Source: Chryseobacterium paridis (GTDB lineage Bacteria > Bacteroidota > Bacteroidia > Flavobacteriales > Weeksellaceae). From it: 64,000 bases of DNA. This document shows positions 3,098-29,610 of this stretch, one piece after another. The translations under genes were made by a program, and so were the position numbers. The DNA lies in the NCBI RefSeq assembly GCF_016595215.1, contig NZ_JAENHK010000001.1, positions 310,001-374,000 of the forward strand. The letters are read 5' to 3'. The notes below the pieces were generated by a model that worked only from the letters and a program-made list of their open reading frames with translations, was not told the DNA's origin and did no database searches. The stretch's first letter is position 1; every line of letters begins with the position of its first letter.

Positions 3098-4411
3098 TTG
3101 AATATAACAATTGTAGGAACAGGTTATGTAGGGTTAGTTACAGGAACTACCCTCGCAGAACTTGGCAATTCAGTATACTGTGTTGACATTGATGAAAAAA
3201 AAGTAGAAGGTATGAAAAACGGCGTAGTTCCCATTTATGAGCCGAACCTTGAAGAAATGTTTCATAGAAATATACAATCTCAAAGATTGTTTTTCACAAC
3301 TAATTTAAAAGAAGCATTGGATAAAAGCGAAGTCGTGTATCTGGCACTCCCTACTCCTCCAGGAGAGGATGGTTCAGCCGACCTTTCTTACGTGCTAGGT
3401 GTCGCTAGTGACATAGGAGACCTGATGACGGAATATAAAGTGATTGTCAATAAGAGTACAGTTCCCGTAGGAACTGCCGAGAAAGTAACAGAAGTTATTT
3501 CTTCAAGAACAGATATAGCTTTTGATGTTGTTTCTAATCCCGAGTTTTTAAGAGAGGGCTTTGCCGTAGAAGATTCAATGAATCCAGCACGAGTTGTTGT
3601 AGGATCAAGTTCAGAAAAAGCAAAGGAAATCATGTCTAAAATTTACCAACCCTTTACAAATACTGGAATTCCAATTATTTTTATGGATGAAAAATCATCC
3701 GAGCTTACTAAATATGCATCTAATTCATTTTTAGCAGTAAAAATTACATTTATGAATGAGATTGCCAATTATTGTGAAAAAGTAGGTGCCGATGTTGACA
3801 AAGTAAGACTGGGAATGGGAAGTGACGACAGGATAGGACATCGATTTTTATTTCCTGGTATCGGATACGGAGGAAGTTGTTTTCCTAAAGATGTAAAAGC
3901 GCTTATCAAATCAGGAAAACAAGAAGATTTTAATTTTCAGATTTTAGAGGCTACCGAAAACGTGAATGTTGCTCAGAAGGTAATTTTGGTATCGGAAATC
4001 GAAAAATATTTTGAAGGTAATCTTAAAGGAAAAAAAATCGCCATTTGGGGATTAGCATTCAAAGCCAATACCGATGATATTCGTGAAGCCTCATCTCTAG
4101 ACAACATCGATCTTTTATTGAAAAAAGGAGCAGAAATAATTGCTTATGATCTAGTCGCGGAGAATAATGTCCGTAATATTATTGGAGATCAAATTCAATA
4201 TGCAAAAACTATGTATGATGCTTTAGAAGGAGCTGATGCACTATTTATTGCTACAGAATGGCCAGAGTTTAAAAATCCAAATTTCGAGTTGATGGCTAAG
4301 AAGATGAAAAGCAAGGTCATTTTTGACGGAAGAAATATGTTTCCTCTGGAAGTTCCTAAACAAAACGGATTTTATTATAAAAGCATAGGAAGACAAACCA
4401 TATTGAATTAG
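3098..4411 (+). CDS. ugd: UDP-glucose 6-dehydrogenase
   Basis: A 437-residue enzyme that oxidises UDP-glucose to UDP-glucuronate with two NAD+. The N-terminal Rossmann motif GTGYVG is at residues 7-12. The catalytic thiol is Cys261 in GYGGSCFPKD. The C-terminal UDP-binding domain contains WGLAFKANTDDIREASS. The start is a TTG: the nucleotide-binding motif begins at residue 6, and no later ATG would preserve it. It is the first gene of the polysaccharide locus, divergent from rimP. UDP-glucuronate could enter the glycan as such or be modified further, for instance by the amidotransferase homologue at 17218. Related UDP-ManNAc dehydrogenases are less likely given the overall motif pattern and length, but substrate choice cannot be proved from sequence. 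Confidence 0.9.
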   Translation: MNITIVGTGYVGLVTGTTLAELGNSVYCVDIDEKKVEGMKNGVVPIYEPNLEEMFHRNIQSQRLFFTTNLKEALDKSEVVYLALPTPPGEDGSADLSYVLGVASDIGDLMTEYKVIVNKSTVPVGTAEKVTEVISSRTDIAFDVVSNPEFLREGFAVEDSMNPARVVVGSSSEKAKEIMSKIYQPFTNTGIPIIFMDEKSSELTKYASNSFLAVKITFMNEIANYCEKVGADVDKVRLGMGSDDRIGHRFLFPGIGYGGSCFPKDVKALIKSGKQEDFNFQILEATENVNVAQKVILVSEIEKYFEGNLKGKKIAIWGLAFKANTDDIREASSLDNIDLLLKKGAEIIAYDLVAENNVRNIIGDQIQYAKTMYDALEGADALFIATEWPEFKNPNFELMAKKMKSKVIFDGRNMFPLEVPKQNGFYYKSIGRQTILN

Positions 4412-6725: not shown

Positions 6726-7574
6726 ATGAATGAACCACAACAAAAGTGGACAGAAACAATTGAGGCTAGCCATTCTCTGTTTGATCTAAAGTTCAAAGAG
6801 ATATGGAGATATAAGGATCTCATATATATGTTTGTTAAAAGAGATTTCGTATCAAGCTTTAAACAAACCGTATTAGGACCTGTTTGGTTTTTCATCAATC
6901 CTATTTTTACTACCATAACCTATTTAATTGTCTTTGGAAGAATAGCTAAGTTGCCTACCGACGGCGCTCCTCCTCTATTGTTTTACCTTGCTGGTATTAC
7001 TCTTTGGAATTATTTTTCAACTTCGTTAACAGGGACATCATATACTTTTGCTGGAAATGCCGGTATATTTGGAAAAGTATACTTTCCCCGATTGGTAACA
7101 CCATTATCAATAGTTATTTCCAATCTAATGAGATTTGGCGTACAGTTTATCCTATTTATGATCGTGTGGGGATATTACTTTGTAAGAGGAGAGGCACATC
7201 CCAATATTTGGATACTTGCTACACCTTTTTTAGTAATACTCATGGCTTTGTTCGCATTAGGAGTCGGAATGATATTTTCCTCTCTCACTACAAAATATAA
7301 GGATTTAAATATGCTTCTTGGATTTGGTGTAAGCTTGTACATGTATGCCACTCCGGTGATATATCCTACCTCTTCACTTCCGGCTGGTTTCAAAAGCATT
7401 GCTTATTATAATCCTTTGACAGGGATCTTCGAATGCTTTAAATATGCATGGTTAGGTGTCGGAAATTTTTCCCCGCTCATGTTAGGGATAAGTACTGCCA
7501 TAATTATGATACTATTGGCAATAGGAACTGTTATTTTCAACAGAGTTGAAAAAACTTTTATGGATACTGTCTAA
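6726..7574 (+). CDS. wzm: Polysaccharide ABC exporter, permease
   Basis: A 282-residue inner-membrane protein of the ABC-2/Wzm family, the channel that exports undecaprenyl-linked polysaccharide. It begins with an amphipathic segment (LFDLKFKEIWRYKDLIYMFVKRDF) typical of Wzm, then about six hydrophobic segments, including FFINPIFTTITYLIVFG and PLMLGISTAIIMILLAIGTVIF. The conserved TVLGPVWFFINP region sits before the first membrane span. It pairs with the ATPase gene 61 bases downstream. An ABC exporter implies that the chain is completed in the cytoplasm before export, consistent with the absence of Wzx and Wzy in the window. Confidence 0.9.
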   Translation: MNEPQQKWTETIEASHSLFDLKFKEIWRYKDLIYMFVKRDFVSSFKQTVLGPVWFFINPIFTTITYLIVFGRIAKLPTDGAPPLLFYLAGITLWNYFSTSLTGTSYTFAGNAGIFGKVYFPRLVTPLSIVISNLMRFGVQFILFMIVWGYYFVRGEAHPNIWILATPFLVILMALFALGVGMIFSSLTTKYKDLNMLLGFGVSLYMYATPVIYPTSSLPAGFKSIAYYNPLTGIFECFKYAWLGVGNFSPLMLGISTAIIMILLAIGTVIFNRVEKTFMDTV

Positions 7575-7635
7575 GCAAAACAGTAAAAACTGTTAGAATT
7601 TATTATAAAAGTCTAATTTCTTTAAATTAAAAAAC

Positions 7636-8889
7636 ATGCTGGCTTTAAAAGCTGAAAATATATCAAAACAATACCGCTTGGGACAAGTTGGAACAGGGAC
7701 TCTAACCCATGACCTAAACAGATTTTGGTATAGAGTAAGAGGAAAAGAAGATCCCTATTTAAAAATTGGAGATACTAATGACAGAACCACCAAGGGTAAT
7801 TCCGAATATGTATGGTCTCTTCGGGATATCAATTTTGAAGTTGAGCAAGGAGATGCGGTAGGAATTATTGGGAGAAATGGTGCAGGAAAGTCTACCTTAT
7901 TAAAAATTTTAAGTAAAGTCACCAAACCTACCACAGGAAAAATTTACACTCAGGGAAGAATTGCATCTCTATTGGAAGTGGGCACAGGATTTCACCCTGA
8001 AATGACAGGCCGGGAAAATGTTTTTTTAAATGGGGCTATTCTAGGAATGACCCGTAAAGAAATCAAACGTAAATTCGATGAAATTGTAGATTTCTCTGGA
8101 GTTGAAAGATATATCGATACACCTGTAAAAAGATATTCATCAGGAATGTATGTTCGTCTGGCTTTTGCGGTTGCAGCTCACCTTGAATCTGAAATACTTA
8201 TTGTAGATGAAGTATTAGCGGTGGGAGATGCCGATTTTCAAAAAAAATGCCTTGGAAAGATGGGTGATGTTACAAAAGGAGAAGGAAGAACTATTCTTTT
8301 TGTAAGTCATAATATGACAGCCATAAAAGAACTTTGTAAGAGCGGACTTTTATTGAACCAAGGACATTTGGATTATTCAGGAAATATTCTGCAAACAATA
8401 GCAGAGTATCAAAAAAATGCGGAGAGACAAAGTAGTTACATTCATGAAGGGATTTTAGAAACGGCTTTGGGAAATCAAAACATCAGAATATTGGAGTTTT
8501 CAGCCAAACCGGCTTCAGGTCCATTTTTAGATATTGAATCTGGCGTAAAAATAAGATTGAGATTCTATAATTATAGAGAAAATATCAATCTGGATACTAC
8601 TTTCGAGCTAAGAACATATGAAGAAGCTGTTGTCTTTCACACCGGAGCTTTCGTCACAACAAATAATAGTTCCAGAAAAAAGGAATACACTGTAGAATTT
8701 GAAATTCCTGCAAGTCTGCTCAATGCAGGAAATTATTATTTTAAGATTATGTTTGGTCAAGATCAAAAAATTCCTCTTTATATTGCCAATGAAATAATTG
8801 GATTTGAAATTGAAAATGTAAAAATGGGGAAAAATATTAATGCTTTACCGGGAATTATTAGACCCAATTTTAATTATGATATAAAATAG
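7636..8889 (+). CDS. wzt: Polysaccharide ABC exporter, ATPase with C-terminal glycan-binding-type domain
   Basis: A 417-residue ATPase. Walker A GRNGAGKST is at residues 79-87, the signature YSSGM near 168, and Walker B ILIVDEV has Asp191/Glu192. The switch His lies in LFVSHNM. The ATPase is preceded by about 60 extra residues, typical of Wzt/TagH proteins. Residues from about 270 to 417 form a beta-rich domain resembling the Wzt C-terminal domain, which in E. coli O8/O9a binds the chemically capped non-reducing end of the O-antigen before export. Its presence suggests chain-length control by a terminal modification; the methyltransferases at 16445 and 21971 are candidates to make it. It is followed 6 bases later by the fdtA-like gene. 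Confidence 0.92.
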   Translation: MLALKAENISKQYRLGQVGTGTLTHDLNRFWYRVRGKEDPYLKIGDTNDRTTKGNSEYVWSLRDINFEVEQGDAVGIIGRNGAGKSTLLKILSKVTKPTTGKIYTQGRIASLLEVGTGFHPEMTGRENVFLNGAILGMTRKEIKRKFDEIVDFSGVERYIDTPVKRYSSGMYVRLAFAVAAHLESEILIVDEVLAVGDADFQKKCLGKMGDVTKGEGRTILFVSHNMTAIKELCKSGLLLNQGHLDYSGNILQTIAEYQKNAERQSSYIHEGILETALGNQNIRILEFSAKPASGPFLDIESGVKIRLRFYNYRENINLDTTFELRTYEEAVVFHTGAFVTTNNSSRKKEYTVEFEIPASLLNAGNYYFKIMFGQDQKIPLYIANEIIGFEIENVKMGKNINALPGIIRPNFNYDIK

Positions 8890-17217: not shown

Positions 17218-19014
17218 ATGTGCGGAATAGCTGGAATAATAGCTTCTAATGCTAAAAACTATGCAAATGAAATAAAAAAAATGACTGATGTTTTAGCACA
17301 CCGGGGTCCAGATTCTGCACATCATGAATTTTATGAAAAGGCAGCATTAGGCCATCGCAGACTTTCAATTATAGACCTTTCGGAAAATGGCAAGCAACCC
17401 ATGTTTTCAAATACTAAAAATGAATGCATTGTACTGAATGGTGAAATTTACGGATATCTTGATATCAAAAAAAAGTATCCAGAATATCCCTATCATGGAA
17501 GCTCCGATACAGAAGTTATTCTAGCAATGTATCAGAGAAAACAGGAAAATCTTATTCATGATCTTCCAGGAATGTTTGCTTTTGCAATTTGGGATGATCA
17601 AAAGCAACAATTGTTTTGTGCTAGGGATCGCTTTGGGGAAAAACCTTTTTTTTATGCTATCGGTCATAATAATGAATTTATTTTTGCTTCAGAAATTAAA
17701 GCGATTCTGGCTTCTGGTTTAATTCATCCACAGGTAAATTTTGATGCCTTATCTCATTATTTGCAATATGGATATGTAAACACCTATCAAAGTATTTATA
17801 GCAATATTTTCACACTTCCTCCTGCTCATCAATTGATTTATAAAAATCGAGAAGTTCAGGTTTCACGTTACTATAGTCTGCCGGCAAAAGATAGGAACAT
17901 AAGCTTATCTGATGCAAAGGAAGAGTTTTTGTATCTTTTAAAAAATGCTGTTAAAAAGCAACTCATCGCAGACGTTGAAGTAGGTAGCTTTTTAAGCGGA
18001 GGATTAGATTCTTCTTCTATCGTTGGCTTGGTCAATGAATTTTTGCCAAAACAAACAACCATTAGTTTCGGATACGACCATAAAGATAGTGAGCTAAAAT
18101 ATGCAAAAGAGATCGCAGAAAAATACCATACCAATCATATTGAAGTTCATGAAAAAAAACAGGATATAGCTGCATCACTTTTAAAAGTCTCTCCTTTTTT
18201 GGATGAACCTTTTGAAAATATATCATATATTCCACATTATGAGATTTGTAGAAATGCAAAAAAAAGTCTGACAGTAGTTCTTTCAGGAGATGTGGGAGAT
18301 GAATTATTTGGAGGTTATCATTTTTATAAAGTCGAGAATCAGTTAAGACATCATTTTAGTTATAAAAACATGGTGGCTCAATTTGGACTAAAACTCTATC
18401 AAAAATTCAAGGAGACTTCTTTCGTCACACAAAGTAATTTACAATATTCATCTATTCTAGACTTTCATCAGAATTCTGTTAGAACAGCATTTAACAAAAA
18501 AGAAAAAAGTTTATTAGGAGTTTCATCAGACTTTCAACAACCTTATAGTTTTACACCCAATTCTGATTCGTTGAATGATATTATGAGAATGGATCTCGAA
18601 AACTATGTCCCAGGTGATATGATGATGAAATCCGACAGAATGGCCATGGCCAATTCATTAGAAGTACGAACTCCATTCCTTGATCTTGATTTTGCTGAAT
18701 TCTGTATACAATTGCCAGAACAATTGAAACTGGACAATGAAAATGACAAAATTATACTTCGGGAGACGATGGGCTCATATTGGACTGAAACAATAAGAAA
18801 CCGTCATAAACAAGGATTTGGAATGAGTGTTAAAGCTTGGTTTGAGGAAGAATCCCTTGTTAATCTTTCCAATGATCTACTTAAAGATCCTAATCAGAAA
18901 ATTTTTAACTATATTGATTTTGGCAATACTCAAAAGTTCCTGACTAAAGATCATAAACACTGGAATTTGCTACAACTTGCTCTGTGGGCCTATAACAATC
19001 AAAATGTATTATAA
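17218..19014 (+). CDS. asnB: Asparagine synthase (glutamine-hydrolysing) family amidotransferase
   Basis: A 598-residue two-domain enzyme. The N-terminal Ntn glutaminase has the catalytic Cys2 (MCGIAGI) and the Arg/Asn/Gly/Asp residues of the family (AHRGPDS, GHRRLSIIDL, LNGEIYG, SSDTEVIL). The C-terminal synthetase domain has the PPi loop SGGLDSS (about 260-266) and SGDVGDELFGGYH. Both active sites look intact. AsnB homologues occur in many polysaccharide loci (for example WbpS), where they are thought to amidate uronic acids. The gene is embedded among glycosyltransferases and overlaps the next one by one base, so a role in glycan amidation is at least as likely as asparagine supply. The symbol names the family, not a proven substrate. 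Confidence 0.85.
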   Translation: MCGIAGIIASNAKNYANEIKKMTDVLAHRGPDSAHHEFYEKAALGHRRLSIIDLSENGKQPMFSNTKNECIVLNGEIYGYLDIKKKYPEYPYHGSSDTEVILAMYQRKQENLIHDLPGMFAFAIWDDQKQQLFCARDRFGEKPFFYAIGHNNEFIFASEIKAILASGLIHPQVNFDALSHYLQYGYVNTYQSIYSNIFTLPPAHQLIYKNREVQVSRYYSLPAKDRNISLSDAKEEFLYLLKNAVKKQLIADVEVGSFLSGGLDSSSIVGLVNEFLPKQTTISFGYDHKDSELKYAKEIAEKYHTNHIEVHEKKQDIAASLLKVSPFLDEPFENISYIPHYEICRNAKKSLTVVLSGDVGDELFGGYHFYKVENQLRHHFSYKNMVAQFGLKLYQKFKETSFVTQSNLQYSSILDFHQNSVRTAFNKKEKSLLGVSSDFQQPYSFTPNSDSLNDIMRMDLENYVPGDMMMKSDRMAMANSLEVRTPFLDLDFAEFCIQLPEQLKLDNENDKIILRETMGSYWTETIRNRHKQGFGMSVKAWFEEESLVNLSNDLLKDPNQKIFNYIDFGNTQKFLTKDHKHWNLLQLALWAYNNQNVL

Positions 19015-19949
19015 TGCTTGATGTTTCTGTCATCATACCTGTATACAATGCTGCTGAGTTTTTAGAAAAATCAGTCCATTCTGCATTACAATTTGAGGAA
19101 GTTAAGGAAGTTATTTTAGTTGAAGATCAATCAACTGATAACTCTTTGGAAGTTTGTCAAAATTTAGTTTCTAAAAATAAAAAAGTAATTTTATTCCAAC
19201 ATCCCGATAAAAAGAATCATGGAGCCGGGGCTTCAAGAAATCTAGGGATTGCAAAATCAACTGGTAGCTTTATTACATTTTTGGATGCTGATGATTATTA
19301 CCTCCCGAACAGATTTCAAGCCGAAAAAGAAATATTTAATAACCCCAAAATAGAAGGAGTTTTTGGGGCAATTGGTATTGAATACTTAACCGAAAAAGGA
19401 AAACAGGAATACCAGTCTAAATTTAGTGACACTTTACTTACCACAGTAAATTATCCTGCAGAAGGTAAAGAAGTTTTTAAGGGCCTTTTGGGTTTAACGC
19501 CTAAAACCTTCGGGACATTCTTTCATCTCAATGCTCTAACTATAAGAAAGTCATCTATTGACCAATATAATCTACAGTTCAATGAACTTCTTCGAGTTCA
19601 TCAGGATTCTGACTTCATTATTAAACTAGCCTACCATTGTTATTTAAAATCAGGCATAATAGATCAGGCAGTGGCTATAAGGGGAATCCATGATGATAAC
19701 AGAATTACTAAAATCATAAAATATTCTCCCCAATATAATCAGAGGCAACTTCTTTTTTGGAATTCTTTATATGATTGGTCTACAAAAAACAATATACCTT
19801 CTGAATACAAAGAAAAAATTTACTTAAGATATAAGTCTTTTGATTTGTCTCAGAAAACTGGAGTTTCAAAATATTATAATATCTTTATTGAAGCAATTAA
19901 AAATCCCAATATACTAAAAACACAATATCGATTTAACTATCAAAAATAG
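19014..19949 (+). CDS. Family 2 glycosyltransferase, tandem paralogue 1 of 3
   Basis: A 311-residue GT2 enzyme. It has VSVIIPVYNAAEFLEKSV, ILVEDQSTDNSLEVCQ, HGAGASRNLGIAKSTGS and the motif FLDADDYYLPNRFQAEKEIF. The donor-site block reads VEDxS where most GT2 enzymes read VDDxS. About 70 residues around FSDTLLTTVNY and LLGLTPKTFGTFFHLNALTIRKSS are shared only with the two following genes, so the three form a tandem subfamily. This copy is the most divergent of the three, especially after residue 230. It overlaps asnB by one base. Confidence 0.85.
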   Translation: MLDVSVIIPVYNAAEFLEKSVHSALQFEEVKEVILVEDQSTDNSLEVCQNLVSKNKKVILFQHPDKKNHGAGASRNLGIAKSTGSFITFLDADDYYLPNRFQAEKEIFNNPKIEGVFGAIGIEYLTEKGKQEYQSKFSDTLLTTVNYPAEGKEVFKGLLGLTPKTFGTFFHLNALTIRKSSIDQYNLQFNELLRVHQDSDFIIKLAYHCYLKSGIIDQAVAIRGIHDDNRITKIIKYSPQYNQRQLLFWNSLYDWSTKNNIPSEYKEKIYLRYKSFDLSQKTGVSKYYNIFIEAIKNPNILKTQYRFNYQK

Positions 19950-19954
19950 ATGAA

Positions 19955-20896
19955 ATGAAAATCTCAGTAATCATTCCTGTTTATAATGCTGAAAAGTATG
20001 TTGCTGATGCTGTTGAATCTGCTCTTAAGCATGATGAAGTATTTGAGGTAATTTTAGTCGAAGACAAATCACCAGATCATTCTTTGCAGGCTTGTGAGGA
20101 ATTGGAACTAAGGTATGATAGAGTAAAATTATATCAACATCCTGATAAACAAAATCATGGTGCAGGCCCCAGTAGAAACTTGGGGATACAGAAATCAACG
20201 GGAGATTTCGTTGCATTTCTAGATGCTGATGATTATTATCTAGCCAATCGGTTTGATGCTGAAAAGGAGCTTTTTAAAAATCCAAAAGTAGAGGGAGTCT
20301 ATGGAGCTTTAGGAGTACATTATTATTCTGAAAAAGCAAAAGAACAGTATTATAATTTATTCAAGAATTCACTTACTACAGTTTACAAAAAACATGATCC
20401 AAAGCAGGTTTTCCCTGGATTAATTCATAAGTTAGGAAGTTTCGGACTTTTTAGTCTTGATGGGCTAACTATTAGGAGAGAATCCTTAATAAAGAAAGTA
20501 AAACTCTTATTCAAACCAATGAAACTTCATGAAGACACTGAATTTTTATTTCGCTTGTCTTATTATCTGGATTTATACCCTGGAATTATTGATGAAGCCG
20601 TTGCAATGAGGGGAGTACATGAAAGTAACAGAATTACCAAAGTAGATTCAAACAAGGCCAAACCAGCCATTTCAAGGGTTATACTTTGGAATGAAACTTA
20701 TAATTGGGTAAAAGACGAAGAAACAATCCCTGAAAATATTAAAATCCACATTAAAAGGATGCAACGAAGTTTTGAGATTGCAAATGCTCCAAAATTAAAA
20801 AAATGGGCCATGATTCTTAAATATTTAGTCGTTGATTATCAGAGCATAAAATCAGGTTTATATAATATTAACTTCAGGTATTCATTAATTTCGTAA
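19955..20896 (+). CDS. Family 2 glycosyltransferase, tandem paralogue 2 of 3
   Basis: A 313-residue GT2 enzyme with ISVIIPVYNAEKYVADAV, ILVEDKSPDHSLQACEE and FLDADDYYLANRFDAEKE. It is closely similar to the next gene along its whole length, including GVYGALGVHYYSEKAKEQYY and LGSFGLFSLDGLTIRRESL, and the C-terminal block DYQSIKSGLYNINFRYSL. It follows the first paralogue by 5 bases. The similarity points to a local duplication followed by divergence; the paralogues may add similar residues at consecutive positions. Confidence 0.86.
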   Translation: MKISVIIPVYNAEKYVADAVESALKHDEVFEVILVEDKSPDHSLQACEELELRYDRVKLYQHPDKQNHGAGPSRNLGIQKSTGDFVAFLDADDYYLANRFDAEKELFKNPKVEGVYGALGVHYYSEKAKEQYYNLFKNSLTTVYKKHDPKQVFPGLIHKLGSFGLFSLDGLTIRRESLIKKVKLLFKPMKLHEDTEFLFRLSYYLDLYPGIIDEAVAMRGVHESNRITKVDSNKAKPAISRVILWNETYNWVKDEETIPENIKIHIKRMQRSFEIANAPKLKKWAMILKYLVVDYQSIKSGLYNINFRYSLIS

Positions 20897-20945
20897 TCTT
20901 GCATATTAGTATCTACCGTTTTGTTTGCTAAATTAATTGACAACA

Positions 20946-21884
20946 ATGAAAATATCTGTCATCATTCCTGTTTATAATGCAGAGAATTATATTTTACAAG
21001 CTGTTAAGTCAGCTCTTCAGTTTGATGAAGTGTTTGAAGTAATTCTTGTAGAGGATAAATCTCCTGATAATGCTTTGCAAGTTTGCCAGAAATTAGCGAA
21101 AGAATATGATAGAGTAATACTTTACCAACACCCAGATAAACAGAATCATGGTGCCGGAGCCTCCAGAAATCTGGGAATGCAAAAAGCAACCGGAGATTTT
21201 ATTGCATTTTTAGATGCTGATGATTATTATCTATCCAATCGGTTTGATGCTGAAAAAGAGCTTTTTCAAAACCCTGAAGTGGAAGGAGTGTATGGCGCTA
21301 TCGGAGTGCATTACTATTCCCAGAGAGCTAAGGAACAATATTACCAACTTTTTGAAGAACGTCTAACGACAGTATATAAAGAACATGCTCCTGAAGATGT
21401 TTTTCCGGGGCTTCTTAATATGAGAGGTAGTTTTGGCCTTTTTAGTCTTGATGGATTAACAATTAGAAAAAGTTCGCTCTCTAAGCTTGGAGCTTTCTTC
21501 AAAACTTCTTTGAGACTTCACCAGGATACAGAATTTATTTTTCGACTTTCCTATTATCTTCATCTATACCCCGGAACACTCAACAATGCTGTTGCAGTGA
21601 GAGGCGTTCACGAAAATAACAGAATTACACAAGTAGACATTGGGAAAATAAAACCATCTTCTACAAGGATTCTGCTTTGGACAGAAGTAAATAATTGGGC
21701 GAAAAATGAAGGCTCAATTCCAACCGATATAAAGAAACATATCGAAAGGACTCTCCGCAGTTTTCAGATTGCTGAAGCTTCTATTCCTAAAAAATGGGGA
21801 ATGATTACAAAATACCTATTTACAGATTATCGCAGTATTAAATCTGGATTATATAATATTAATTTTAGAAGATATTTACTTTAA
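20946..21884 (+). CDS. Family 2 glycosyltransferase, tandem paralogue 3 of 3
   Basis: A 312-residue GT2 enzyme starting at the ATG at 20946 (MKISVIIPVYNAENYILQAV). An in-frame TTG at 20937 is unlikely because the paralogues begin exactly at MKIS. It has ILVEDKSPDNALQVCQKL, HGAGASRNLGMQKATGD and FLDADDYYLSNRFDAEKE. It ends in SIKSGLYNINFRRYLL like paralogue 2. A strong bidirectional terminator follows at 21916, closing the long plus-strand operon that starts at wzm. Confidence 0.86.
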   Translation: MKISVIIPVYNAENYILQAVKSALQFDEVFEVILVEDKSPDNALQVCQKLAKEYDRVILYQHPDKQNHGAGASRNLGMQKATGDFIAFLDADDYYLSNRFDAEKELFQNPEVEGVYGAIGVHYYSQRAKEQYYQLFEERLTTVYKEHAPEDVFPGLLNMRGSFGLFSLDGLTIRKSSLSKLGAFFKTSLRLHQDTEFIFRLSYYLHLYPGTLNNAVAVRGVHENNRITQVDIGKIKPSSTRILLWTEVNNWAKNEGSIPTDIKKHIERTLRSFQIAEASIPKKWGMITKYLFTDYRSIKSGLYNINFRRYLL

Positions 21885-25535: not shown

Positions 25536-26984
25536 ATGATGAATCCTTTTATCGAAAATTTATACCAATCATTTCTTCAGCATAAGACCAATACATGCTT
25601 TAGCATTGAGGATAAAAACTACACCTATGGAGAGGTGTTACATATTTCAGATCAGATCAGATACCAGTTACAGAAAGTTGATTCTCAAAATGTAGGAATT
25701 TATCTTACAGATGATGTGCATATGTATGCTTCAATTCTTGCTGTATGGTTCTCAGGAAAAACATATGTTCCAATACATCCTGATTTTCCAATGAATAAGA
25801 ATATCAATGTTATTCAGCAAGCGGATATAGAAGTGATTCTAACCTCAGTGGAAATAATAGAAAATTATCAAATTAAACTTATCGACACTAAAAAAGTGTT
25901 TGATAAAGACCCCTCTACTCTACCTTCTGAAGCATCTATTAATAACAATGCCTACATTCTTTTTACTTCAGGAAGTACAGGAAACCCCAAAGGAGTTCCT
26001 ATCCAATTTTCAAACTTATATTATTTTTCGGAAGCCTTTCATTCAACTTTTGGAAAACTAAAGTCCGATGATCATATATTACAGATGTTTGAGCTCACTT
26101 TCGATCTATCTGTGATGAGTTATATGATTCCCTGGTTAAATGGAGCTGCAGTAGTAGGCCTTCATAAAAAAGAAACTAAATTTTTACAGATTCTGGACTT
26201 ATTAGAAGCCAATAAGATTACTATAGCCCTCATGGTTCCAAGTATTTTAAATCTGATTATCCCCTACCTGGATCCAGAAATAAAAAATAAAAGTTTAAGG
26301 CTCAATTTATTCTGTGGAGAAGCGTTATTAACAAAGCAGATTGAGGGTTGGAAAGACTTTATTCCCAACGCAAATATCTATAATGTATATGGGCCAACAG
26401 AAAATACTATTTTCTGTACCTATTATAAAGTTGAGTCACCTATTAAAGAAAAAAATGGAATTATAAGTATTGGAAAGTCTATGATCAATTCTATGATGAG
26501 TTTTTCTAATGATGATACTAATGAAGGGGAATTATTATTGTCAGGAAAATTATTAGCGAATTCTTACTGGAAGAATGAAGAAAAAACCAATGAGGCTTTT
26601 ATTCAAAAAGATGATACAATATTTTACAGAACTGGTGATTGGTGCTTAAGAGATACTGAGGGAGACTACTTCTATCTGAATAGAATAGATTTTCAAGCTA
26701 AAATAAATGGCTTCAGAGTGGAATTAGCTGAAATCGAATACTTTGCAAATGAAAAACTGAATAATTCCATCAGCATTGCTCTCATCCATAAAGATAACAA
26801 CAACAACGATCTTCTGGTCCTTTTTATTAATGACATGAACATTGATGAAAATCTAATCGTTTCTCATCTGAAAGATAACTTACCTGAATACTGTATTCCT
26901 TCGAAAATTATTAAACTGGAAAAGTTCCCAGTCAATACATCTGGAAAAATAGACCGGAATGAATTAAAAAAAACACTGTCATGA
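25536..26984 (+). CDS. Adenylation enzyme (DltA-like amino acid/acid ligase)
   Basis: A 482-residue stand-alone ANL-superfamily adenylation enzyme. All core motifs are present: the P-loop-like ILFTSGSTGNPKGV near residues 141-154, NVYGPTENTIFCT, YRTGDW, the hinge FQAKINGFRVELAEIE, and the catalytic Lys in NTSGKIDRNELKK near the C-terminus. Size and motif spacing resemble DltA and free-standing NRPS adenylation proteins that load a partner carrier protein. No dltB or dltD is present. A 76-residue carrier protein is encoded just downstream on the opposite strand, and a GNAT gene overlaps the 3' end by 4 bases. It likely activates an amino acid or small carboxylic acid used to decorate the glycan; the substrate is unknown. 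Confidence 0.82.
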   Translation: MMNPFIENLYQSFLQHKTNTCFSIEDKNYTYGEVLHISDQIRYQLQKVDSQNVGIYLTDDVHMYASILAVWFSGKTYVPIHPDFPMNKNINVIQQADIEVILTSVEIIENYQIKLIDTKKVFDKDPSTLPSEASINNNAYILFTSGSTGNPKGVPIQFSNLYYFSEAFHSTFGKLKSDDHILQMFELTFDLSVMSYMIPWLNGAAVVGLHKKETKFLQILDLLEANKITIALMVPSILNLIIPYLDPEIKNKSLRLNLFCGEALLTKQIEGWKDFIPNANIYNVYGPTENTIFCTYYKVESPIKEKNGIISIGKSMINSMMSFSNDDTNEGELLLSGKLLANSYWKNEEKTNEAFIQKDDTIFYRTGDWCLRDTEGDYFYLNRIDFQAKINGFRVELAEIEYFANEKLNNSISIALIHKDNNNNDLLVLFINDMNIDENLIVSHLKDNLPEYCIPSKIIKLEKFPVNTSGKIDRNELKKTLS

Positions 26985-27619
26985 TTAGTATCAGAAAAGC
27001 AACAAAAACTGACATCCCATTAATTATAAAGGGTATAATAGCTATTGAAACCAATCCGATATCACAATCTGATACCTACAGTAATATATTCGGGACTGAT
27101 TCTTTAACTACAAAAGAATACCTTAATCAGTTTTTTTTGGATGATGAAAATTTTGACACAGAACTTTCATTGAATTCATATACCATTGCAGAAGTGGATG
27201 GCAAGCCTGCAGGCTGTTGTGCCCTTATTTTTACAGATTCAAACTATTATCAGAATAAAAGCGAACTATTTCCTATTCATTTAAAAGGCGAGCATTTACA
27301 GTCGTTTATTAACAAGGTAAAAGGTTTACCTGAAACCAAAAGTTATTCTGAAAACAAATATCTTATTCAATACGTTTTTGTAGATGATCATTTCAGGGGT
27401 AAAGGAATTGCTGAATTTTTATTAAACCATATCATTACACAGGTTGAAAATCAGGCTAACGAAATTTATATAGATGTACTGGAAAATAGTCCACACCTTA
27501 TACAATATTATTCAAAATTTGGATTTTCAGAATACAAAATCATGGATATTGATACTCCGGAAAATATGATTTATCCTTGTATCAAAAAGGTTATTTTACG
27601 GAAAGTTTTTAAAAATTAA
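26981..27619 (+). CDS. GNAT-family N-acetyltransferase
   Basis: A 212-residue protein starting ISIRKATKTDIPLIIKGI, the standard GNAT beginning. The acetyl-CoA-binding motif A is YVFVDDHFRGKGIAEFLLNH, followed by IYIDVLENSPHLIQYYSKFGF. A 60-residue insert (about 60-125) separates the first strands from motif A. It overlaps the adenylation gene by 4 bases (ATGA), so both are made together, and it is convergent with the carrier-protein gene. It could acylate the amine of the activated amino acid or transfer the carrier-bound group; this is inferred from gene order. Confidence 0.8.
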   Translation: MISIRKATKTDIPLIIKGIIAIETNPISQSDTYSNIFGTDSLTTKEYLNQFFLDDENFDTELSLNSYTIAEVDGKPAGCCALIFTDSNYYQNKSELFPIHLKGEHLQSFINKVKGLPETKSYSENKYLIQYVFVDDHFRGKGIAEFLLNHIITQVENQANEIYIDVLENSPHLIQYYSKFGFSEYKIMDIDTPENMIYPCIKKVILRKVFKN

Positions 27620-27846
27620 TCAAACTTCTCCTTTCCAATGGCTTCCGTTAAATCTCCTATAGTATTTATATTTCTGAAAGATCGGGGATTAAGGCTCACC
27701 CCAAATTGATTTTCAACCAACTGCATAACCAATACAGCTGACAAAGAGCCATAGCTTTCTAATTCTTTAAAATTAGTGTCTGGAGTTATTGTAGCTTTTT
27801 CGTTTAGTTCTTGTTTAAGCAGTTCGCAAAAATGTTCGACCTTCAT
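27616..27846 (-). CDS. Acyl/peptidyl carrier protein
   Basis: A 76-residue helical protein with the ACP fold pattern. Ser34 in SYGSLSAVLVMQLVENQFG aligns with the phosphopantetheine-bearing Ser of E. coli ACP, judged by equal spacing to the 'FG' after helix II. It reads GSL rather than the canonical DSL. It is transcribed on the minus strand from a divergent promoter region shared with the acyltransferase at 27905, and its 3' end overlaps the GNAT gene by 4 bases. It most likely accepts the acid activated by the adenylation enzyme at 25536. It is not the fatty-acid ACP, which is normally clustered with fab genes and more acidic. Confidence 0.78.
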   Translation of the reverse strand: MKVEHFCELLKQELNEKATITPDTNFKELESYGSLSAVLVMQLVENQFGVSLNPRSFRNINTIGDLTEAIGKEKFD

Positions 27847-27868
27847 TGTGTTGTAATATTTGAACAGG

Positions 27869-27876
27869 CAAATTTA
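27869..27876 (-). promoter_or_regulatory. -7 box of the carrier-protein gene
   Basis: On the minus strand this reads TAAATTTG (perfect TAnnTTTG), 22 nt before the ATG at 27846. It lies back to back with the plus-strand box at 27889. Confidence 0.55.
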
Positions 27877-27888
27877 TAAAATAATTTC

Positions 27889-27896
27889 TAACTTTG
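27889..27896 (+). promoter_or_regulatory. -7 box of the 27905 acyltransferase
   Basis: TAACTTTG, a perfect TAnnTTTG, ends 8 nt before the ATG at 27905. It implies that the in-frame TTG at 27860 is upstream of transcription and is not the start. Confidence 0.55.
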
Positions 27897-27904
27897 TTTT
27901 TACT

Positions 27905-28462
27905 ATGATGATATATAAAATTATTAACAAAATATCTACCCTCACTCAGGATTTCCAGCATTCTGTTTATCTCAAAATCTGCATAAATAGTGGCTTAAAA
28001 CTAGGCAAAAATGTAGTGGTAAGAAATAATGTTTCTTTTGGTTCTGAGCCTTTTTTAGTGGAAGTTGGAGATGACACAAGAATTGCGTCAGGAGTAACTT
28101 TTGTTACTCATTCTGGAGCAACAGCAAACATAAGAAAACTGAAGGGCTACGAAGAAGTAAGAAACTTTGGAAGGATAAAAATTGGAAAAAATTGTGCTAT
28201 TGGTAGCAATTCTGTCATATTACAAAATGTAGAAATAGGTGACAATTGTGTTCTGGGTGCAAATTCTGTACTGTCAGAATCAATGCCGGAACATACCGTC
28301 TATGCAGGAAACCCCGCTAAATACGTATGCGAAATAGAAGATTATGCTGACGTTTTGAAAAAAACCACTGTTGATTATCCTATTGATTTGGAAAAAAACA
28401 GAAAAGAGCTTAATCAATGGCTGAAATTGAATTTACCTGAAAAATTCAAAACCACGAAATAG
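27905..28462 (+). CDS. Hexapeptide-repeat acyltransferase
   Basis: A protein of about 185 residues, starting at ATG 27905 or 27908 (MMIYKIINKIS). Left-handed beta-helix repeats run from about residue 35 (GLKLGKNVVVRNNVSFG) through IGKNCAIGSNSVILQNVEIG to YAGNPAKYVCEIEDY. The catalytic-type His is in FVTHSGATANIRKL. A helical C-terminal tail follows. It resembles the CatB/maltose acetyltransferase group. It shares an intergenic promoter region with the carrier-protein gene and overlaps the next glycosyltransferase by one base. It may O-acetylate the glycan, or use the carrier-bound acyl group; the second is speculation from context. Confidence 0.8.
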   Translation: MMIYKIINKISTLTQDFQHSVYLKICINSGLKLGKNVVVRNNVSFGSEPFLVEVGDDTRIASGVTFVTHSGATANIRKLKGYEEVRNFGRIKIGKNCAIGSNSVILQNVEIGDNCVLGANSVLSESMPEHTVYAGNPAKYVCEIEDYADVLKKTTVDYPIDLEKNRKELNQWLKLNLPEKFKTTK

Positions 28463-29610
28463 TGCCAAAGAAAAAAATCCTTATCCGAATTGGTTCCCTT
28501 CGTCACGGTGGCGCAGAAAAAGTATTAGCTACTTTTTTAAAAAATTTACCTCGGGAGAAGTACGATATTGACCTTCTTTTAAACCTATATTCAGGAAAGT
28601 ATTTATCTGATATCCCAGATTGGATTAATGTAATTTACTTAAATAAAGGAGAGATGATTACAACCAATCGTCTTCAGGATATACCTAAAAAGACTTTGAG
28701 AGTCATTTACCAAAATACATTAAAGAAATTCCCTAACCTTCTCTACAAAGGAAAGTTAAGAAATAAAAAATATGATATAGAATTTGCTGCTATTCATGGA
28801 ATGCGGGACGAAATTCTAAACTCTCCTCTTCAATCATCTAAAAAAGTAGTTTGGATCCACAACGACCTATCACAAGTAAAGGGATATACCAATGATGAGA
28901 TCCGTCAATTTTTTGGCTTTGATAAAATACTTGTAATCTCTGAGAAAATTGAACAATTATTTCATTCTTTAGCTAAAGATAATACTGAGAGAAAGAAGAT
29001 CGTTAAGATCTATAATCCACTAGATACTTACGAAATTCTTACAAAAGCTGAGGAACCGGTCAAAGAATATCAATTTGATCAAACTATTCTAACCTTTGTT
29101 TCTGTAGGAACAGTATTTCCTCAAAAAGGATTTGACAGACTTTTAAAAGTTCATAAAAAACTGATAGATGAAGGTTTACAGCATAGGGTTTTAATTATTG
29201 GAGATGGATATGATTTCGAAAATATTAAAAAATTAAAATCTGAGCTTGGTATTGATGATACGGCTACTATGTTAGGATTCACAGATAATCCTTACCCGTA
29301 TTTCAAAAATGCTGATTTTTATATCCTGAGTTCTCGATATGAAGGTTTTCCAACCGTTTTATTTGAAGCCATAACTTTGAAAAAGAAAATTATTGCAACA
29401 GAAGTTTCTGGTGTAAAAGAAATGTTAGATAAGGGAAAATTAGGCTTGATTATTGAAAACTCAGAAGAAGGAATTTATTCCGGAATGAAAAAGGCATTAC
29501 TACAACCTGAAATTTTTGTAAAATATTCAGAAGCATTAAATTATTATCAAATGCCATTTAATCTTGAGAATTCGGTTAATAAAATAACCAGTATCTTAGA
29601 CGAATTGTAA
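28462..29610 (+). CDS. Family 4 glycosyltransferase
   Basis: A 382-residue GT-B enzyme that starts with GTG at 28462, overlapping the previous stop by one base. The N-terminus KKKILIRIGSLRHGGAEKVLA carries the glycine-rich acceptor-site loop. The C-terminal donor domain has FVSVGTVFPQKGFDRLLKVH, LIIGDGYDFENIKKL and SSRYEGFPTVLFEAI. It is a paralogue of the GT4 at 24330. The last ~40 residues look helical and may contact the membrane. Donor and linkage are unknown. Confidence 0.87.
   Translation: MPKKKILIRIGSLRHGGAEKVLATFLKNLPREKYDIDLLLNLYSGKYLSDIPDWINVIYLNKGEMITTNRLQDIPKKTLRVIYQNTLKKFPNLLYKGKLRNKKYDIEFAAIHGMRDEILNSPLQSSKKVVWIHNDLSQVKGYTNDEIRQFFGFDKILVISEKIEQLFHSLAKDNTERKKIVKIYNPLDTYEILTKAEEPVKEYQFDQTILTFVSVGTVFPQKGFDRLLKVHKKLIDEGLQHRVLIIGDGYDFENIKKLKSELGIDDTATMLGFTDNPYPYFKNADFYILSSRYEGFPTVLFEAITLKKKIIATEVSGVKEMLDKGKLGLIIENSEEGIYSGMKKALLQPEIFVKYSEALNYYQMPFNLENSVNKITSILDEL

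Follow-up and report, generated by a model that had tools for sequence, protein, structure and literature searches.

A candidate carrier-dependent glycan-acylation module in an O-polysaccharide locus of Chryseobacterium paridis

Carrier-fed acylation of an O-polysaccharide (as a proposal) and aminoacyl-carrier systems of the cell surface are already known. The former was proposed from genes and structure for wfpC–wfpG of Flavobacterium psychrophilum (R1 of Qui2NAc4NR), where an acyl group would be built by ketoacyl synthases (KAS) and a reductase on a carrier encoded in the O-polysaccharide locus itself and moved to the sugar by a PglD homolog, and where the R-group genes vary between strains (PMC6519341). 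Among the latter, Dlt (DltA and DltC with DltB and DltD) carries out the D-alanylation of teichoic acid, and Alm (AlmE, AlmF and AlmG) places glycine on the lipid A of Vibrio cholerae. The PglD homolog of the wfp system is, we presume, a hexapeptide acyltransferase. PMC3783018 and PMC12930378 assign the roles of AlmE and AlmF in opposite ways, and the version of PMC12930378 is followed here. In addition, adenylate-forming enzymes (SbzL and SbzB), carriers (SbzG and SbzK) and GNATs (SbzI and SbzC) have been demonstrated in vitro in the biosynthesis of SB-203208 (PMC6331615). Here, we analyze a 64,000-nucleotide stretch (the window) of the 4.77 Mb genome of Chryseobacterium paridis, in which genes for a stand-alone adenylation ligase, a GNAT, a carrier protein and a hexapeptide acyltransferase (hereafter HEXA) stand together between two glycosyltransferase genes; in our judgement, there is about an even chance that these four genes form a carrier-dependent glycan-acylation module.

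Orthologs of the ligase (69–83% identity) were found in 10 of the 173 genomes of the genus, the window included, and all ten loci contain the complete set of ligase, GNAT, carrier and HEXA in the same order, on the same strands and between the same flanking glycosyltransferases. Thus, the four-gene layout is not due to chance. The same four genes are also found together in L161 and in L163 of Halpernia humi. The preliminary description had proposed carrier-dependent acylation from the window alone, and this co-occurrence, along with a ligase pocket that resembles those of AlmE and DltA and not that of an unrelated pathway, lends support to the proposal. The genes of the module and its flanks are as follows:

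25539..26984, plus strand: adenylation ligase, 481 residues, stand-alone, amino-acid type
26981..27619, plus strand: GNAT, 212 residues
27616..27846, minus strand: carrier protein, 76 residues, PP-binding, of the lineage of the KAS-type carriers of the same slot
27745..27747, minus strand: codon of Ser34 in the GSL motif, where phosphopantetheine is predicted to attach
27905..28462, plus strand: HEXA, hexapeptide (left-handed beta-helix, LbetaH) acyltransferase, 185 residues
24330..25502, plus strand: GTL, glycosyltransferase of family GT4, left flank of the slot, with a subtype that also follows slot content
28462..29610, plus strand: GTR, glycosyltransferase of family GT4, right flank and census anchor, which tracks slot content less closely

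All four genes previously described at 25536–28462 are present and supported by Pfam, with two of their starts shifted: the orthologs, which begin with MN[SP]FIEN or similar, set the start of the ligase at 25539 instead of 25536, and those of HEXA (MMIYK) place it at 27905 instead of 27860. The 4-base overlap of ligase and GNAT reported earlier was found at 26981–26984. The 3' ends of the GNAT and carrier genes are convergent and overlap at 27616–27619, and HEXA was correctly described as divergent from the carrier, with 58 bases between the two starts.

The ligase matches PF00501 (E 2.4e-49) and fits the amino-acid adenylation domains of the ANL superfamily, with the AMP-binding core, Asp189 and the A10 lysine Lys470 present; AMP-binding_C gave no match at E 0.1. 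Asp189 and Lys470, the presumed alpha-amino-binding aspartate and A10 lysine, are invariant in 27/27 aligned ligases. In amino-acid adenylation domains, an aspartate at this position holds the free alpha-amino group. The pocket residues, assigned by eye, are D189, L190, M193, L231, L257, C259, V283, I291, F292 and K470, and the motifs FDLSV, FCG and YGPTE match AlmE, which is the second of 12 matches for the pocket region. The structural model (mean pLDDT 86.4) has mostly amino-acid adenylation domains as its near folds and no single clear nearest one (Z scores of 46.2 for FscH (Ser), 44.9 for AlmE (Gly) and 43.4 for DltA). Because the pocket resembles those of AlmE and DltA, the substrate is likely to be a small amino acid. 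The enzyme had been called DltA-like, which holds for pocket and fold and does not extend to the curated DltA models, both of which score below their cut-offs (TIGR01734, 260.4 bits against 559.85; NF003417, 269.4 against 476); TIGR01733 is likewise under its cut-off (270 bits, 317.4). Reading the pocket code DLMLLCVIFK as one named amino acid was abandoned, as no single substrate matched. A role as a part of a nonribosomal peptide synthetase (NRPS) was also dropped, the other adenylation domains of the genome being only 28–35% identical among the matches listed. As a separate observation, contig C2 of the same genome carries a large NRPS-like region at ~129,500–274,700, with 24 of the 32 listed PP-binding matches and a match to phosphopantetheinyl transferase (PPTase) at its end.

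The GNAT matches PF00583 above the cut-off (E 1.5e-11). The coenzyme A (CoA) loop of GNATs follows the pattern R/Q-x-x-G-x-G/A, and R139 and G142 of this CoA or pantetheine loop are invariant in 16/16 aligned sequences. According to the structural model (pLDDT 89.4), the 212-residue protein has the GNAT fold with the CoA loop; the top VIA-align match is 4m85 (Z 18.5, root-mean-square deviation 2.5, 181 aligned residues), followed by 1u6m (Z 17.0).

The carrier, described earlier as a 76-residue protein on the opposite strand, was recovered as such, with a PF00550 match (E 1.5e-9, 38.4 bits, cut-off 20.8) and Ser34 kept in all 12 ligase-type carriers (those of the ten genus loci, L161 and L163). 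Three PPTase matches in the same genome make phosphopantetheinylation of the carrier possible. The glycine preceding the serine had been noted as unusual, and it does differ from the aspartate found in 46/46 carriers of slots with a KAS; however, it is fixed in 12/12 ligase-type carriers and hence not peculiar to the genome studied here.

Across the genus, these genes occupy a slot of variable content. GTR is present at E 1e-70 in 170 of 173 genomes, and 123 loci including the window were compared; 47 of the 170 genomes with this anchor (G018 among them, with the anchor at a contig start) were left out, as were L051 and L052, where the carrier matches lie outside the slot. In this census, whose frequencies are not population frequencies because 22 of the 123 loci were picked for a carrier match, the slot contains ligase, GNAT, carrier and HEXA in 10 loci, a carrier, KAS III and HEXA in 46 (34 also with a short-chain dehydrogenase/reductase, SDR), another carrier, an SDR, a 444-residue ligase and HEXA in three, HEXA but none of these carriers in 50 (judged by searches with the three slot carriers at E 1e-4, so that other carriers may be missed), and neither full HEXA nor such a carrier in 14, including the incomplete loci L068 (contig end) and L116 (HEXA truncated). 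Thus, in most carrier-bearing relatives, the slot, as judged from its genes, comprises a carrier and a hexapeptide transferase fed by KAS III and SDR. The Cys-His-Asn triad of KAS enzymes (C124, H264 and N294) is present in 46/46 KAS-type slots, and no KAS was found in the 10 ligase-type slots. The preliminary description had remarked on the lack of fab genes, which is true in the window, whereas fab-like genes occupy the same slot in 46 relatives.

In L078:4748-7550, L111:4751-7663 and L152:4308-6931, the slot holds yet another type of supply, with a 96-residue carrier-like protein (FDSIGLL motif by eye; the L078 copy without a Pfam match), an SDR, a 443–444-residue ligase and a distinct HEXA clade. 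In L116:6736-10216, the slot carries a transposase-like gene (by eye), the HEXA and GTR pieces are truncated, and the GTR search match includes a TAG.

On the carrier tree (43 rows and 82 columns, with the KAS type thinned to 15 and ten rows of the ligase type), ligase-type and KAS-type carriers group together with support of 100/99, whereas grouping of the ligase-type carriers with the carriers of the distant ligases (p-AU 0.020) or with those of FkbH-like genes (p-AU 0.015) was rejected. Hence, the carrier of the window shares its lineage with the KAS-type carriers found in this slot. This ancestry explains why the carrier is antisense to the ligase, an arrangement that had been noted as unusual and is real: the carrier is part of the slot's divergent carrier side, which the KAS-type loci have as well. 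Annotation error as its cause is refuted by 12 orthologs.

HEXA matches PF00132 above the cut-off (E 1.3e-15), in line with its earlier description as a hexapeptide acyltransferase. LbetaH repeats, a catalytic histidine and a GNPAK-like end are features of this family; His69, in an F..H.G motif, is kept in 109/109 HEXA homologs of the census and G.PA in at least 97% of them. A carrier-binding residue signature was looked for in HEXA and none was found. Each of the 59 slots that contain one of the three types of slot carrier also has HEXA. Among the 100 loci found by the GTR anchor alone, 63 of which belong to a high-identity GTR clade that was sampled first, HEXA is present in 36/36 with a carrier vs 50/64 without (Fisher p 0.0017; 36/36 vs 50/62 and p 0.0033 minus L068 and L116), figures that ignore shared ancestry, the rows not being independent. 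The ligase-type HEXAs form a single clade (support 100). On FastTree phylogenies, for which the program warned of long branches, slot content requires 6 changes on the phylogeny of HEXA (minimum 3), 8 on that of GTL (minimum 4) and 21 on that of GTR (minimum 4). HEXA and GTR adjoin in most loci; therefore, plain linkage does not explain the difference between 6 and 21 changes. By these trees, HEXA is tied firmly to the module in the ligase type and the three-locus type, but only loosely where KAS and carrier-free slots are compared.

The closest named relatives of the ligase are in Chryseobacterium, and related ligases are rare (4/395 genomes of a phylum sample and 3/395 of an order sample at E 1e-62, with the own genome in both). 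Of 13 distant loci with enough flank, from other Bacteroidota and Ignavibacteria (36–44% identity; L169 and L170, on short contigs, not counted), 11 have a carrier in the same-strand run and 10 have a GNAT, some GNATs being identified by alignment (L173) or by eye (one of the four in L182) instead of BLAST; the ligase-carrier pairing thus extends beyond the genus. The runs of ligase, GNAT and carrier are those of other Bacteroidota, whereas Ignavibacteria have ligase-GNAT pairs. In L165, L172, L173 and L175, an MBOAT (DltB-like) gene and a further gene directly follow the carrier, the MBOAT being confirmed by Pfam in the first three and recognized by likeness to L173 in L175; L165 combines ligase, carrier and MBOAT without a GNAT. 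The Chryseobacterium ligases share all ten pocket residues with nine distant ligases (~40% overall identity), and five more ligases of GNAT-bearing loci vary at some positions yet keep Cys259 and Phe292, whereas the GNAT-less loci L165, L184 and L185 have other pockets with neither residue. Thus, the presence of the GNAT goes with substrate type. Because the carrier groups with the KAS type and the distant ligases sit in ligase-GNAT-carrier runs, a Dlt-like ligase-GNAT cassette probably joined the resident carrier/acyltransferase pair of the slot, and the ligase type would have replaced the KAS type, not the reverse. In L182:2518-8848, from the phylum sample, a single run comprises a ligase, four GNAT-like genes, an FkbH-like gene and one carrier, a hint that GNATs may be exchangeable, as modifiers of acyl groups or as transferases.

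From the gene content, conservation and ancestry of the module, we infer each of the following chemical steps. A PPTase would generate the holo-carrier at Ser34, and the ligase, with ATP, would activate a small alpha-amino acid and load it on the carrier, as suggested by its family, its pocket and the conserved pairing. The GNAT would then N-acetylate the aminoacyl unit on the carrier, yielding an N-acylaminoacyl donor; this is the weakest step. Finally, HEXA, given its constant place beside the carrier, would move this acyl group off the carrier and onto an O-polysaccharide sugar, at a hydroxyl or amino group.

The module shares with wfpC–wfpG a carrier of its own in an O-polysaccharide locus, an acyl group that would be built on it and transfer to a sugar, and the KAS-type slots of the genus look like the wfp kind; the ligase-type slots instead have an adenylation ligase and a GNAT and a transferase nearest to WbbJ, and the wfp-type supply (KAS and reductase on a locus carrier) was not found in any of the ten. 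Like Dlt, the module has a stand-alone amino-acid adenylation enzyme and a carrier, and the distant relatives even show a Dlt-like row of ligase, carrier, MBOAT and a further gene; unlike Dlt, it falls below the DltA cut-offs, adds a GNAT and has a hexapeptide protein as the candidate end transferase, and, consistent with the dltB absence reported earlier, a search of the whole genome for MBOAT (PF03062) at E 0.001 gave no match. The likeness to Alm is that of a Gram-negative pathway in which a ligase charges a carrier with a small amino acid, as the ligase here would, to supply an acyltransferase, whereas the Alm acceptor is lipid A, AlmG has a lysophospholipid-acyltransferase domain and the accessible part of the report describes no GNAT (PMC3783018). 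SbzL, SbzG/SbzK and SbzI (SB-203208/altemicidin) also combine an adenylate-forming enzyme, a carrier and a GNAT, yet they belong to Streptomyces secondary metabolism and the GNAT itself transfers the acyl group (PMC6331615).

Several points weigh against the acylation module as proposed. That the GNAT acts on a carrier-bound group is a presumption; in the listed stretches of L167, L171, L182 and L183, with 2 to 4 GNATs each, no gene like HEXA or MBOAT was recognised, and L182 and L183 add FkbH-like or SDR/ligase genes. The glycine in place of aspartate before the serine might weaken phosphopantetheinylation. The best named family of HEXA is the O-acetyltransferase WbbJ (73.6 bits, cut-off 243), and no residue is common to the HEXAs of the three carrier types and absent from the carrier-free ones. 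Furthermore, given the 50/123 carrier-free slots and the mixing of KAS-type and carrier-free HEXAs on the tree, with up to 93.5% identity, a neighbouring carrier is clearly not required for HEXA to work. The GTL tree tracks slot content almost as well as the HEXA tree, so that part of the signal may be linkage.

The main rival, which we regard as rather unlikely, is that the GNAT is itself the transferase from carrier to amino sugar, like SbzI and SbzC, and HEXA an independent acetyl-CoA-dependent O-acetyltransferase. The SbzI precedent is proven in vitro (PMC6331615), and the SbzI-SbzG complex (8zt4) ranks sixth in Foldseek for the GNAT model; the many carrier-free HEXAs and the four distant loci with several GNATs and no recognised end transferase also fit. 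However, the 8zt4 score is close to those of many CoA-dependent GNATs, and VIA-align ranks 4m85 and 1u6m first, with SbzI not among its best 50 matches. A separate MBOAT follows ligase, GNAT and carrier in L172, L173 and L175, L165 has the MBOAT and no GNAT, and the ligase-type HEXAs form a clade unmixed with carrier-free ones, all of which argue for a transferase other than the GNAT. Alternatively, the GNAT could work on the substrate (for example, supplying an acylated amino acid to the ligase) or on the acceptor sugar, with acyl transfer left to ligase, carrier and HEXA. The coupling of the GNAT to Cys259/Phe292 pockets, and its absence from three loci with other residues, would suit this improbable scheme, whereas the invariance of Asp189 argues against an N-acylated ligase substrate.

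That the four genes are mere neighbours, hitch-hiking in a recombining locus without a shared pathway, is in our view very unlikely. Glycan loci do shuffle cassettes, GTL also follows slot content, and 14 slots lack both full HEXA and such a carrier; however, the ten genus loci are complete, ligase-GNAT-carrier runs and ligase-GNAT pairs recur outside this locus, GTR, which adjoins HEXA, tracks the slot less (21 vs 6 changes), and head-to-head promoter-like boxes occupy the carrier-HEXA gap. These boxes, TAnnTTTG, which we take to be the Bacteroidota -7 box, are found on each strand of the gap in 8/8 ligase-type loci examined (12 known), some of the gaps being near-identical, against a background in the window of 0.8 per kb per strand. 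The boxes and the exporter genes of the locus are as follows:

27869..27876, minus strand: TAnnTTTG promoter-like box before the carrier
27889..27896, plus strand: TAnnTTTG promoter-like box before HEXA
6726..8889, plus strand: Wzm/Wzt-like ABC exporter genes, matching below the curated cut-offs of the families

The setting of the module thus corresponds, by its gene content, to an ABC-exporter O-polysaccharide locus, with the Wzm/Wzt-like assignment resting below curated cut-offs; the glycan locus also contains RmlA, RmlB, an aminotransferase and many glycosyltransferases. An asparagine-synthase-type amidotransferase (17218–19014), which could amidate a uronic acid, has a UDP-glucose dehydrogenase-like gene upstream (3098–4411), and three similar glycosyltransferase-like genes lie in tandem at 19014–21884. 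A second carrier system is present in these O-antigen loci (L034:14636-17890, similar in many loci), with an FkbH-like protein, a 79-residue carrier, a methyltransferase in some and a small glyoxalase-like gene (by eye); some of these loci also have a 477-residue gene, the L037 copy of which is an MBOAT. Beside the same locus, one relative encodes a protein of 364 residues whose N-terminal part is a PP-binding domain (L032:6080-7174).

No description of adenylation- and carrier-fed glycan acylation, of a hexapeptide sugar transferase supplied by a ligase-GNAT-carrier core, or of such an exchange slot was found in the literature as judged by titles and abstract openings, with few subscription papers covered, and the main text on Riemerella serovar loci (PMC10787497) contains none of the terms sought. 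More broadly, with somewhat less than even confidence, we suggest a third surface aminoacyl-carrier system beside Dlt and Alm, in which a ligase-GNAT-carrier core makes an N-acetylaminoacyl-carrier for an MBOAT or, in Chryseobacterium, for HEXA, the slot being an exchange site for supply chemistries. If so, the core is spread over Bacteroidota and Ignavibacteria, the supplies exchanged before one carrier/transferase position are an amino acid ligase, KAS III, an acyl ligase with SDR, or none, and the fixed Asp/Gly difference in the carrier marks a change of partner.

O-antigen diversity is usually credited to glycosyltransferases and polymerases; here, relatives differ in acyl supply at one position, and cassette exchange would let one locus alter the chemical decoration of the surface. 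The slot offers a naturally occurring set of supply types in front of a homologous transferase, with a carrier motif that varies with the partner, and the module provides a testable candidate for a new aminoacylation route outside Dlt and Alm.

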